The notes under the pieces: generated by a model
The model's database searches: none
Told to the model about the DNA's origin: nothing
What the model saw: only the letters and a program-made list of their open reading frames with translations
Translations under genes and position numbers: made by a program
Shown: positions 26,049 to 36,007 of the stretch, in pieces
How positions within the stretch are numbered: the stretch's first letter is position 1
Layout of the letters: each line of letters begins with the position of its first letter
NCBI GenBank assembly: GCA_020832555.1
Contig: JAFIEM010000002.1
Location: forward strand, 36,522-100,521
Direction: 5' to 3'
Length of the DNA stretch: 64,000 nucleotides
DNA from: Natronohydrobacter sp.
GTDB taxonomy: Bacteria > Pseudomonadota > Alphaproteobacteria > Rhodobacterales > Rhodobacteraceae

Positions 26049-27593
26049 TCAGCGCCCTTTCAGCAATCCCCCAAGCACCCCGCGCATCAGCGCCTGTCCC
26101 GACCGGGTGCCAAGCTGACGGGCCATCGACTTGGCGAAAGCATCGACTGCCGTATCGCCCCGCCGCGCGGCAGGCGCGCGCGTTGTCGGGCGCGGCGCGT
26201 TGCGCGTGGCAGGTTCGTAGCGCCGCGCATTGTTGAACTCGCGTTCCCGCTCCTTTTCCACTTCGGCTGCCTTCAAGGCCGCTTCGGCCTCGCGCGCGGC
26301 AGCTTCCGCGCGCCGCGCCAGCATTTCATGCGCCGAGTCGCTGTCCACCATCCGCTCATATTTCCCCGCGACGGGCGAGCGCAGCATCAGCATCTGGCGC
26401 TGGCCCTCTTCAATCGGGCCAATCAGCGACGAGGGCGGGCGGATCATCGTCCGCTCGGCCACGCCGGGATTGCCCTTCTCTTCCAGAAACGAGGTCACGG
26501 CCTCGCCCACGCCGACATCGCGGATCGCATCCGCGATATCAAAGCGCGGGTTCGGTCGATAGGTCTGTGCTGCGCGCCGCAACGCCTGCTGGTCGCGCGC
26601 GGTGAAGGCGCGCAGGGCGTGCTGGATGCGATTGCCCAACTGGCCCAGCACCGTGTCGGGCACATCATCGGGGTTTTGCGTCACGAAATACACCCCGACC
26701 CCTTTCGAGCGGATCAGACGGGCCACGCGCTCGACCTTCTCGACCAGCGCGCGGGGGGCGCCGTTGAACAGCAGATGCGCCTCGTCGAAGAAAAACACCA
26801 GCACCGGCTTCTCCGGGTTGCCGACTTCGGGCAGTTCCTCGAAGAGTTGCGACAAGAGCCACAAGAGGAATGTCGCGTAGAGTTGCGGCGTGCGCATCAG
26901 CCGTTCGGCATGCAGGATCGAGATATAGCCGCGTCCATCCGGGGCCACGCGCATCAGATCAGACAGTTCCAGCGCGGGTTCGCTGAAAAAATGCGCGGCC
27001 CCCTGATTTTCCAGCACCAGCAGCTTGCGCTGGATCGCGCCGATGCTTTGCGTCGTTACATTGCCATAGGTCTGTGAAATCTCGCGCTGGTTCTCGCCCA
27101 GAAAACTCAGGATCGCGCGCAGGTCTTTCAGATCGAGGATCGGCAGCCCTTCGTCATCCGAGATGCGGAAGGCCACATTGATCACGCCTTCCTGCGCCTC
27201 GGTCAGATCGAGCATCCGCGAGAGCAGCAACGGTCCGACCTCGGCCATGGTGGCGCGCACCGGATGGCCGTGCTCGCCGAAGAAATCCCAGAAGATCGCC
27301 GGGCTTTCGCGGTAGCCATAGCCCTCCAGGCCGATCGTTTCCGCCCGCCGCTCCAGCCCGCCGCGCGGTGTGCCGGGCATCGACATTCCGCTGCAATCGC
27401 CCTTGATATCGGTCAGAAAAACCGGGACGCCCGCATTCGAGAATTCCTCGGCCAGAATCTGCATCGTGATGGTCTTGCCCGTGCCTGTGGCTCCGGCGAT
27501 CAGGCCATGCCGGTTGCCATATCCCAGACGCAGGATCTGTGGCTCGCGCGCGGTTTCGCCCCCACCCCCTACGAAAATCGGTTCCTGTTCCAT
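26049..27593 (-). CDS. HerA-like ATPase, DUF853 (YjgR-type)
   Basis: Cytoplasmic P-loop ATPase of 514 aa. Walker A is GATGTGKTIT near residue 34 and Walker B is VLVFFFDEAHLLF near 272. The intermediate segments LTDIKGDCSGM and VYFVTQNPDDVPDTVLGQLGNRIQHALRAFT match the helicase HerA-like/DUF853 family. The C-terminal 110 residues are charged and coiled-coil-like (AAREAEAALKAAEVEKERE), then Arg-rich. The start MEQEPIFVGGGG at 27593 is the family N terminus. Biological role unresolved; no NurA-type nuclease is adjacent. Confidence 0.88.
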   Translation of the reverse strand: MEQEPIFVGGGGETAREPQILRLGYGNRHGLIAGATGTGKTITMQILAEEFSNAGVPVFLTDIKGDCSGMSMPGTPRGGLERRAETIGLEGYGYRESPAIFWDFFGEHGHPVRATMAEVGPLLLSRMLDLTEAQEGVINVAFRISDDEGLPILDLKDLRAILSFLGENQREISQTYGNVTTQSIGAIQRKLLVLENQGAAHFFSEPALELSDLMRVAPDGRGYISILHAERLMRTPQLYATFLLWLLSQLFEELPEVGNPEKPVLVFFFDEAHLLFNGAPRALVEKVERVARLIRSKGVGVYFVTQNPDDVPDTVLGQLGNRIQHALRAFTARDQQALRRAAQTYRPNPRFDIADAIRDVGVGEAVTSFLEEKGNPGVAERTMIRPPSSLIGPIEEGQRQMLMLRSPVAGKYERMVDSDSAHEMLARRAEAAAREAEAALKAAEVEKEREREFNNARRYEPATRNAPRPTTRAPAARRGDTAVDAFAKSMARQLGTRSGQALMRGVLGGLLKGR

Positions 27594-27720
27594 CACCACG
27601 CATCTCTCCCGGTTACAAACACGTTCAGTCTGAAGCTGTCGCTCCGCCAGGATCGCAACGTAAAGCAGGCCAAGACGCTTTGGAAAGCGAATCTTTACCT
27701 CTCTGGTCCAAGCTGGACTC

Positions 27721-27803
27721 ATGCACGATGACACCTCCTCCTGTCATCGCGGCATATTCCTCCCTGTCAGACTGGCTGCACCTTCGGGTGCAGCCATTTT
27801 TTT
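27721..27803 (+). ncRNA. CUCC-loop (CcsR/cuckoo-like) small RNA candidate
   Basis: The plus strand holds a perfect 8-bp hairpin CGATGACA (27726-27733) / TGTCATCG (27742-27749) presenting CCTCCTCC in its loop, then a second CCTCCC at 27760-27765, then a 10-bp terminator stem with TTCG loop and seven T (27773-27803). Rhodobacter stress-induced CcsR RNAs, part of the so-called cuckoo RNA family, carry CCUCCUCCC in hairpin loops. They usually follow a DUF1127 gene; none is seen here. The 5' end is not defined and no clear promoter was found. Confidence 0.55.
27773..27803 (+). terminator. Terminator of the CUCC-loop RNA
   Basis: Stem TGGCTGCACC / GGTGCAGCCA, loop TTCG, followed by seven T. Confidence 0.92.
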
Positions 27804-27886: not shown

Positions 27887-27915
27887 TTGACGACTGCGGG
27901 ATTTCCGCTTACGGT
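27887..27915 (+). promoter_or_regulatory. Probable sigma70 promoter of second small RNA
   Basis: TTGACG (27887-27892) and TACGGT (27910-27915) with 17-bp spacing. A start of transcription near 27922 would give a 70-75 nt RNA ending at the terminator at 27993. Confidence 0.5.
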
Positions 27916-27921
27916 CTGCTC

Positions 27922-27993
27922 AATTCGTCGGCCAGTCCGACAGGGAGCGATAAAAAACGCAAGTGAAACAAGGGCCTCCGGGTCCTTGTTTTT
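27922..27993 (+). ncRNA. Second small RNA or ialB leader candidate
   Basis: Short segment between a good promoter and an intrinsic terminator. It contains a hairpin GTCGG / CCGAC (27927-27941), a purine-rich single-stranded stretch (AGGGAGCGATAAAAAACGC) and the terminator stem AACAAGGGCC / GGTCCTTGTT with a TCCG loop and T tract. No start codon is present, so it is not a leader peptide gene. It could be a free small RNA or a terminated leader of the IalB gene 180 bp downstream. Confidence 0.45.
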
Positions 27994-28172
27994 ATTGGAA
28001 CGCCACTCTGCCCGCTGCGCATGCTGGCGCCGGAGCTTGTCAATCCTGCATCCGAAATGCGCCTTTAGCCGAGACGATCACAAGCAGGTTTTGGTATTCG
28101 TTTTTCAACTGACAGAGATTTGGGCGCATGCTACCACACCGGCCAGAGAGACGAGGTTGTGAAGGACACACT

Positions 28173-28820
28173 ATGACATTTCCCAATTTGGCATCACAGA
28201 AACTCACCGGGGCAAGACTGGTCGGCATGGCTGCGATTCTGGCCCTCTTTACCGCACCGGCTTACGCCCAGACCGCCGAAGAGCCCGCGGCCCCTGCGCC
28301 GCCTGCTGCCGCCGACTCTCCTGCGATGGTACTCTCGACAGGCGAAGTCATCGGCGAGTCACAGGATGGCGACAGCTATGTTGGCAACACGCATGGCGAT
28401 TGGGAAATGGTTTGCGTACGCCTTCCCGATGAGGAAGACCCCTGCCAGATGTATCAGCTTCTGCGGGATGCTGAAGGCAATGCCACGGCGGAAATCTCGC
28501 TCTTTCCGCTGCCTGCCGGGCAGGATGCCGTCGCCGGCGCAACGATCCTGACCCCGCTGGAAACCCTGCTGACCGCGCAACTGGTCATGCAGGTCGATGG
28601 CGGTGCGGCGAAGCGCTACCCTTTCACTTTCTGCACCGCCATTGGCTGCATCGCGCGGGTGGGTTTCACCGGTGAAGAAATCGACGCCTTCCGGCGCGGT
28701 GCACAGGCAACATGGTCGCTGGTGCCTGTCGCGGCCCCCGACCAGACAGTTAATCTGAACATGTCGCTGATCGGCTTCACGGCGGCGTTCAACGAATTGT
28801 CGGAACAACTGCCCCAATAA
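28173..28820 (+). CDS. Invasion-associated locus B (IalB)-family exported protein
   Basis: Protein of 215 aa with a signal peptide (hydrophobic segment ending PAYAQ near residue 32) and an Ala/Pro-rich linker. The IalB domain follows: HGDWEMVCVRLPDEEDPCQMYQLL, TILTPLETLL, PFTFCTAIGCIARVGF and a final beta segment. Four Cys are placed as in the family and probably form disulfides in the periplasm. The start at 28173 follows GAAGGA. Its function in free-living Rhodobacterales is unknown; the name comes from Bartonella. Confidence 0.88.
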   Translation: MTFPNLASQKLTGARLVGMAAILALFTAPAYAQTAEEPAAPAPPAAADSPAMVLSTGEVIGESQDGDSYVGNTHGDWEMVCVRLPDEEDPCQMYQLLRDAEGNATAEISLFPLPAGQDAVAGATILTPLETLLTAQLVMQVDGGAAKRYPFTFCTAIGCIARVGFTGEEIDAFRRGAQATWSLVPVAAPDQTVNLNMSLIGFTAAFNELSEQLPQ

Positions 28821-35930: not shown

Positions 35931-36007
35931 TGGTCGGGGCGATAGGATTCGAACCTACGACCTACGGTACCCAAAACCGTCGCGCTACCAGGCTGCGCCA
36001 CGCCCCG
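35931..36007 (-). tRNA. tRNA-Pro (anticodon TGG)
   Basis: Read on the minus strand: acceptor stem CGGGGCG / CGCCCCG, D-arm GCGCAGCCTGGTAGCGC, anticodon arm with loop TTTGGGT-type (anticodon TGG), T-arm with GGTTCGAATCC, and discriminator A. The terminal CCA is encoded. Total length is 77 nt. It lies 11 bp after the PabC-like gene, on the opposite strand. Confidence 0.96.

Follow-up and report, generated by a model that had tools for sequence, protein, structure and literature searches.

What kind of regulator lies between a HerA-like ATPase gene and an ialB gene of Natronohydrobacter sp. (Rhodobacteraceae), and does it act alone? The segment belongs to a stretch of 64,000 nucleotides of contig JAFIEM010000002.1 (hereafter the window), taken from a draft genome that is 86% complete, and the original prediction had described there an orphan small RNA (sRNA) of the CcsR/cuckoo type. 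In this study, we show that this candidate, RNA A, carries a conserved core outside its hairpin loop and is followed by a second conserved unit, RNA B, whose core fits the core of A and, over a longer run, the cores of SorX and SorY. The features of the two units, their linkage and their conservation make it probable that A is an alpha-r8-like anti-Shine-Dalgarno sRNA and that B is a conserved sponge for the group formed by SorX, SorY and A.

RNA A and its class

The elements first described for A are all present: an 8-bp hairpin with CCUCCUCC in its loop, a second CCUCCC, which lies within TTCCTCCCTGTC, and a strong intrinsic terminator (Table 1). The fold of 27715-27803 reaches -38.4 kcal/mol (z -6.5), a value equalled by none of 200 shuffles. 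Taken alone, the word CCTCCTCC is commonplace, with three occurrences in the window against 2.26 expected and 104 in the genome; it is the structure and conservation of A that exceed chance. By blastn, the A segment was matched in 38 of 100 genomes, its own included, and 30 loci (the window and 29 relatives) were fetched. CTCCCTGT is kept in 29 of these blast-found loci and the terminator is kept too, while the 5' hairpin varies in sequence. A wider set came from a pattern scan of named genomes that gave at least 118 stretches, of which the 80 listed ones were examined (L121-L158 lie outside); 71 have the TTGAC box described below and are the listed B loci, and nine, from Streptomyces and unrelated records, are taken as chance matches because they lack the box. 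As the listed loci were picked by a B-core pattern and their A copies by an A-core pattern, letter constancy in alignments A3 and A4 is partly built in, and a fair sample is given by the 30 loci found by blast. The alignments took in 52 of the 57 listed A copies (A counts from the 102-locus set used below for neighbouring genes have this shortfall too and are left aside), and 82 copies less one identical left 81 for comparison. Over these 81, the hairpin of A persists as a structure (mean energy -15.3 against -9.1 when shuffled; median of 12 pairs), CUCC occurs in 14 loops and CCUCC in six, and UCCUC, CCUCC or CUCCU is found in 20, against 1.2 in shuffles. By these counts, the constant site is the linker core, to which the loop adds a second anti-Shine-Dalgarno site that recurs among the copies.

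These counts bear on the kinship first proposed, according to which A is a single-copy CcsR/cuckoo RNA that acts through its CCUCCUCC loop, by which it would pair with a large number of ribosome-binding sites under stress. It shares with CcsR1-4 and the cuckoo RNAs (CIN1 locus) a CCUCC in a hairpin loop and a terminator, and the enrichment of anti-Shine-Dalgarno words in homologous loops (20 of 81) agrees with an active loop. The original prediction would have been refuted by loss of the hairpin and its CUCC loop in relatives; the hairpin has stayed, the CUCC loop is mostly gone (CCUCC in only six of 81), and it is the CUCC of the linker core that is kept (29 of 30). In contrast to CcsR1-4, A exists in one copy, without a tandem array, at another place and with a linker core. 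No DUF1127 gene is adjacent, as had been stated, so that a host gene of this kind is missing; the two DUF1127 matches of the genome are on other contigs, and no GGAGG (CCUCC on the gene strand) occurs within 600 bases behind either of them. The covariance-model search suggested for cuckoo or CcsR gave no family so named among the Rfam matches to A at E up to 5 (Rfam 15 may hold no cuckoo model), and the best match was SorX. With one anti-Shine-Dalgarno loop hairpin only, the second CUCC in the linker and no DUF1127 host gene, membership among the CcsR/cuckoo RNAs was rejected, and we regard this reading as very unlikely. What stands of the earlier view is an anti-Shine-Dalgarno sRNA, to judge from its conservation, its hairpin-core-terminator anatomy and its complementarity to ribosome-binding sites; the CUCC loop recurs as a minor feature, in 14 of 81 copies.

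In its sequence, A shares the anatomy of the alpha-r8 RNAs (MmgR, SisA, SorX and SorY) and not that of CcsR/cuckoo. The alpha-r8 RNAs, reported from all Alphaproteobacteria except Rickettsiales, consist of a weak hairpin, a single-stranded UUUCCUCCCU that holds an anti-Shine-Dalgarno seed, and a Rho-independent terminator (PMC12559287). The core of the window, AUUCCUCCCU, agrees with UUUCCUCCCU at nine of ten positions and is unpaired in the fold of 27715-27803, several relatives of A carry the exact UUUCCUCCCU, and a Rho-independent terminator follows. The N-formylglutamate amidohydrolase gene, which neighbours alpha-r8 RNAs in most species, not in all (PMC12559287), is not adjacent to A, whose neighbours by Pfam are the HerA-like and IalB genes. 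Among the Rfam matches to A, SorX came first (30.0 bits, E 1.8e-5; gathering threshold 46.6), and other matches were sbrA, a Listeria model to which A probably owes its score by the terminator (26.5 bits, E 0.0018; gathering 45), mmgR (25.9 bits, E 0.0022; gathering 41) and SorY (24.3 bits; gathering 111), besides ylbH-leader on the opposite strand and five weaker ones. Because the gathering thresholds are not reached, we call A alpha-r8-like and not a member of the Rfam SorX or mmgR families.

A had also been described as single. The same genome holds one more full-length relative, a SorY/SorX-like RNA on contig C161 (L176 1501-1551, minus strand) that scores 35.6 bits with R1, our covariance model of A, and 54.8 and 43.2 bits with Rfam SorY and SorX, both below gathering; it adjoins purL-like and LysR-type genes, as read from the sequence, and fits B by 14 pairs. 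Eight other R1 matches in this genome (E up to 0.01) cover the terminator half only. In the family, R1 matches 382 of 394 genomes, a count that includes SorX/SorY-type relatives and terminator-only matches.

RNA B and its fit to A, SorX and SorY

Nor is A an orphan, as the complementary unit B lies immediately downstream, its promoter-like box beginning 84 bases after A. B follows A in all 30 fetched loci, the window included, and in all 30 the order downstream of A is TTGAC, GTCGG..GTCCG(A/G)C(A/G)GGGAG and a terminator-like hairpin, with the B core kept and TTGAC 39-45 bases ahead of GTCGG. Among the listed loci, all 71 have TTGAC no more than 60 bases ahead of B, and none of the nine chance ones does; an A core lies upstream of B in 57 of the 71 (55 by pattern; L090 and L099 by eye). 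The covariance model of B, R2, which scores 69.1 bits in the window, finds a match (E up to 0.01) in 361 of 394 family genomes and in 322 of the 346 of good quality. In a class-wide scan, 27 of 289 genomes match R2 at E up to 0.001, four of them family genomes with 51-69 bits and the other 23 with 29.3 bits at most, and Rfam gives no match within B up to E 5.

In B, GACAGGGAG and GCC(A/G)GUC match CUCCCUGUC and GACUGGC of A, with an A.C mismatch between them in most pairs. An A-B run of at least nine pairs exists in 80 of 81 loci (four with 19 pairs), against 66 of 1620 shuffles; the four are L018, L019, L083 and L089, in which A reads GTTGGACTGGC, SorX-like, and pairs contiguously over 19 positions with the neighbouring B. 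Changes in A and B are linked: B has an additional purine-A in 8 of the 9 loci where A reads ACTTG, compared with 6 of the 72 others (p 8e-7, uncorrected for relatedness), and in L023 and L027 a G-to-C change in A is matched by a C-to-G change in B.

B fits SorX and SorY better than it fits A, where it forms 9+7 pairs. Between CUCCCUGUUGGACU of SorX and SorY and AGUCCGACAGGGAG of B, 14 positions pair, one of them as G.U. In the family, the 20 best loci for SorX (L198-L217) each form 13-20 contiguous pairs with the B core common to the window and R. sphaeroides, which was used in place of each genome's own B. With the window B ended at 27986, inside its terminator stem, the gain on pairing was -13.2 kcal/mol for A, -17.0 for its own genome's SorY-like RNA, -15.1 for the A of R. 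sphaeroides, -17.9 for SorX and -18.1 for SorY, whereas shuffled Bs gave means of -6.2 to -8.1 kcal/mol with the same partners and equalled these gains 4, 0, 3, 1 and 0 times in 200, respectively. Full duplex energies, terminators included, separate the own B only moderately (mean -55.6 against -41.7 for shuffled; 3.6% of shuffles reach the own median), and contiguous pairing and gain on pairing were used for this reason. SorX and B also occur together: SorX matches 379 of the 394 family genomes (310 above the cut-off), B is present in 356 of these 379, and of the 15 genomes without a SorX match ten have no B (seven listed, three deduced by absence from the match list) and five have B only at E 2.6e-6 to 0.009 (Fisher p 9e-9, genome quality uncontrolled).

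Two other explanations of B meet this evidence. In one, B is itself under the control of A and its relatives, being a regulator or else the 5' leader of ialB and not a sponge, and alpha-r8 RNAs bind its GGGAG to stop or destabilize a B-ialB transcript. ialB follows B in 93 of 102 loci, a set that counts five genomes twice (L052, L090, L103, L109 and L110 are fetched relatives), and seven of the nine loci without it run out of sequence; moreover, UdsE, possibly this unit (see below), is reported within an sRNA-mRNA cotranscript (PMC8625941). However, the terminator-like end of B precedes ialB, the kept part of B ends with AGGGAG, and the stretch from the B terminator to ialB varies among the fetched loci, and we consider this reading unlikely. 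In the other, an alpha-r8 gene was once duplicated in inverted orientation, and the complementarity persists as a leftover without function. The B model does match the opposite strand of the SorY-like RNA weakly (16.8 bits), making B resemble an antisense copy of a family member, but a leftover is scarcely credible for a core kept in 30 of 30 fetched loci, with model matches in 361 of 394 genomes, that fits unlinked SorX and SorY best and changes together with A.

Predicted targets and proposed action

Allowing up to one mismatch, the genome has 43 copies of ACAGGGAGGAA, the seed complement of A, and 15 of the reversed word. Thirty of the 43 sites were fetched. One of them is A itself, and of the remaining 29, 16 (15 distinct) are followed after 3-8 bases by an open reading frame (ORF) of at least 60 codons that begins with ATG. 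A control Shine-Dalgarno word, CGAAGGAGGAA, which occurs no more often than its reverse (45 against 52), is so placed at 3 of 30 sites (Fisher p 6e-4, calculated with 15). When ORFs beginning with GTG or TTG are counted as well, this holds for 20 of 29 sites of the seed complement and 10 of 30 of the control (p 0.009). By family, the 15 predicted target genes are Peripla_BP_4 (two), DctP (two), DctQ, Bmp, SBP_bac_1, the small and large subunits of a NiFe hydrogenase, a Fer2 reductase, an aldehyde dehydrogenase, ornithine cyclodeaminase-like, GCV_T, FolE2 and one 81-aa protein without a family. Periplasmic solute-binding or TRAP subunits thus make up 7 of the 15 targets and none of the three control genes. 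These seven predicted transport targets are in line with the pairs SorX-potA and SorY-takP, takP being a TRAP transporter gene. SorX has a lowering effect on the polyamine transporter gene potA (PMC9438474); the action of SorY on takP is described in PMC6238624.

The adjacent A and B genes, both with sRNA signals, probably form a regulator-and-sponge pair. The anti-Shine-Dalgarno core of A would likely block translation of transporter and other mRNAs at their ribosome-binding sites, and B, which carries the complement of this core, would by prediction pair with A and with relatives of A of the SorX/SorY type and so silence them, acting as a decoy and presumably not as a regulator of mRNAs. Because the complement reaches the GGC that opens the terminator stem of the partner, pairing with B would presumably loosen this stem and speed decay. 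By analogy with SisA-CrfA of Caulobacter, Hfq may participate. In a bolder form, to which we give even chances, B is the master sponge of Rhodobacteraceae, a near-universal antisense of the seed shared by SorX, SorY and A that sets the threshold for this whole group of stress and transport sRNAs and is UdsE/RSs2778 in R. sphaeroides, and A partly escapes it through the conserved mismatch.

Several points weigh against a sponge acting on A and its relatives. We infer the separate transcription of A and B from sequence signals, and a generic promoter and terminator scan of the window called neither the promoter nor the terminator of B. The Rfam matches are weak by themselves, because sbrA scores as well as mmgR on A. 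A is the partner that fits B least well: its duplex with B is interrupted by the conserved A.C mismatch, and its gain is equalled by shuffled Bs in 4 cases of 200. A has also changed with no partner change in B in L071 and likewise in L101 and L056. In 14 of the 71 listed B loci, among them Tabrizicola, Rhodobacter kunshanensis and an uncultured Tropicimonas, no A core is recognized beside B, and for this reason B is not solely the partner of A. The 361 of 394 genomes are a count of model matches and not of complementary cores, and where B and SorX are absent together, the small size or incompleteness of a genome may be part of the reason. As for the targets, the control is one Shine-Dalgarno word, and ATG-only counting was chosen after the sites had been seen.

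Two observations on targets stand by themselves. Both NiFe hydrogenase subunit genes, small and large (L230 and L236; contig C43), have the seed complement at their ribosome-binding sites, as ACAGGGAGGAA and ACAGGGAGCAA. The 81-aa protein without a Pfam match lies behind a seed-complement site (L249 1517-1759) and may merit interest, since MmgR affects polyhydroxybutyrate accumulation.

Known systems and the Rhodobacter sphaeroides counterpart

The closest parallel is SisA-D/CrfA of Caulobacter crescentus, in which the regulators likewise have a hairpin, a single-stranded core of the UUUCCUCCCU type and a terminator, a G/A-rich sponge is complementary to the core, and the targets are of the transporter type (PMC12559287). 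B has the trait of a CrfA-type sponge, the complement of its partner's seed, and by analogy A would work like SisA and B like CrfA. The systems differ in that here the regulator adjoins the sponge and B keeps its place between herA and ialB. B and CrfA are likened by description and not by sequence. No B match above 29.3 bits was found outside the family among the 289 class genomes, and B belongs to no described family that we found. In the literature searched, which left subscription papers mostly outside, a sponge for alpha-r8 RNAs is described for Caulobacter only.

In SorX (RF02784) and SorY (RF02651), as in A, a 5' hairpin is followed by the CUCCCUGU core and a GC-rich terminator, and these two RNAs fit B by 13-14 contiguous pairs. 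A differs from them in reading GUCAGAC for GUUGGAC, in scoring below gathering and in adjoining B; moreover, SorX is cut from the 3' untranslated region (UTR) of an ompR-type mRNA, which does not apply to A, as its upstream gene is the divergent herA. MmgR/suhB (RF00519), the alpha-r8 RNA of Sinorhizobium meliloti, has the 10-mer core and the terminator in common with A, but A reaches only 25.9 bits against a gathering threshold of 41 and has no N-formylglutamate amidohydrolase gene beside it.

A counterpart of the locus is present in a genome in which the profile search placed SorX at 2,598,225-2,598,299 and SorY from 1,632,645. As these positions agree with the published 5' ends, 2,598,224 for SorX and 1,632,642 for SorY (PMC6238624), the genome is almost certainly that of R. 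sphaeroides 2.4.1. There A (34.3 bits) and B (62.3 bits) follow a catalase gene and precede ialB, arranged as in the window, at chromosome 1, 1,426,528-1,426,730, minus strand, with the predicted start of B just before GATGAAGTCGG. The A of R. sphaeroides (L218 1472-1529, minus strand) has a differing core, CUCCCUGAACUGGACUGGCC, and its fit to B lies mostly in the second helix, with 11 pairs.

UdsE, once named RSs2778, belongs to the 5'-UTR sRNAs; a transcription start marks its 5' end, and RNase E and PNPase have effects on it (PMC8625941). The gene katE is RSP_2779 (PMC3413700). Because the number 2778 adjoins that of katE and A/B lie between the catalase gene and ialB, UdsE/RSs2778 is probably the A/B locus, and B (or A) may be this RNA. 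The likeness is that of a 5'-UTR sRNA placed by katE through its number to a unit between a catalase gene and ialB; UdsE was matched by gene number and neighbours only, and the passages of PMC8625941 considered here do not mention a sponge role. A and B may also have been detected before among the conserved Paracoccus denitrificans sRNAs intergenic 60, 100 and 134 (PMC5107571), and the trans-sRNAs of Ruegeria pomeroyi (PMC4809877) could include one of them. For StsR and UpsM as identities of A or B, no support was found in the passages on them.

SorX and SorY are stress sRNAs of the model organism R. sphaeroides. If B is a sponge, standing beside one member of the group and fitting unlinked ones by up to 20 contiguous pairs, it would supply a missing layer of this network and give a likely function to an RNA that is perhaps already on published northern blots.

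The coordinates are collected in Table 1. Between herA and A, at 27660-27720, lies a conserved block ATACA..CTTAACC..GCCAGT that looks as if two divergent promoters overlapped. Of 80 homologous upstream stretches, 52 contain TT[AT]ACC (5.8 when shuffled) and 45 contain TTAACC (2.6 when shuffled). TTAACC, which may be a CtrA-type half-site, precedes B in 33 of the 57 listed loci with A and in none of the 14 without; an ATACA..CCAG-type block is present in 11 of these 14.

Table 1. Coordinates of RNA A, RNA B and adjoining features in the window
Feature	Position	Strand	Basis or remark
RNA A, alpha-r8/SorX-like sRNA (predicted)	27715..27803 (about)	+	Fold and conservation; 5' end tentative
5' hairpin of A with CCUCCUCC loop (loop 27734-27741)	27726..27749	+	Arms and loop CGATGACA-CCTCCTCC-TGTCATCG; structure kept, loop sequence not
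Anti-Shine-Dalgarno core UUCCUCCCUGUC of A, single-stranded, presumed seed	27757..27768	+	Alignment of 30 blast-found loci
Segment of A complementary to B, CUCCCUGUC (27760-27768) and GACUGGC (27770-27776)	27760..27776	+	Pairing analyses
Intrinsic terminator of A	27773..27803	+	Generic terminator scan; ten-pair stem 27773-27796, T run to 27803
TTTACC upstream of A, presumed control site of A	27694..27699	+	Relatives mostly TTAACC
RNA B, predicted sponge RNA	about 27921..27995	+	Model R2
Promoter-like TTGACG-17-TACGGT of B	27887..27915	+	TTGAC conservation
Hairpin GUCGG-CCAGU-CCGAC of B	27927..27941	+	Alignments A2 and A4; fold of B
AGUCCGACAGGGAG of B, complement of the SorX/SorY core CUCCCUGUUGGACU, and of A with one mismatch	27934..27947	+	Pairing analysis
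Terminator-like hairpin and T-rich tail of B	27967..27995	+	Ten-pair hairpin in fold; conserved in both A2 and A4
HerA-like ATPase gene, divergent neighbour	26049..27593	-	Pfam PF05872; divergent upstream in 85 of 102 loci
ialB gene, downstream neighbour	28173..28820	+	Pfam PF06776

The position between the HerA-like ATPase and IalB genes is thus as first described. A coding role for A or B was considered, as ORFs of 81 and 207 aa span the region, and was set aside as improbable in view of the varying lengths of the homologs and the terminators inside. Longer forms of B, with an extra GGTGC..GCACC- or GATGC-type stretch before the terminator and no A core beside them, were seen in L057 (Aliiruegeria) and L112 (uncultured Tropicimonas). 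The sole match of the window at Rfam gathering level is a tRNA gene at 35934-36007 on the minus strand.
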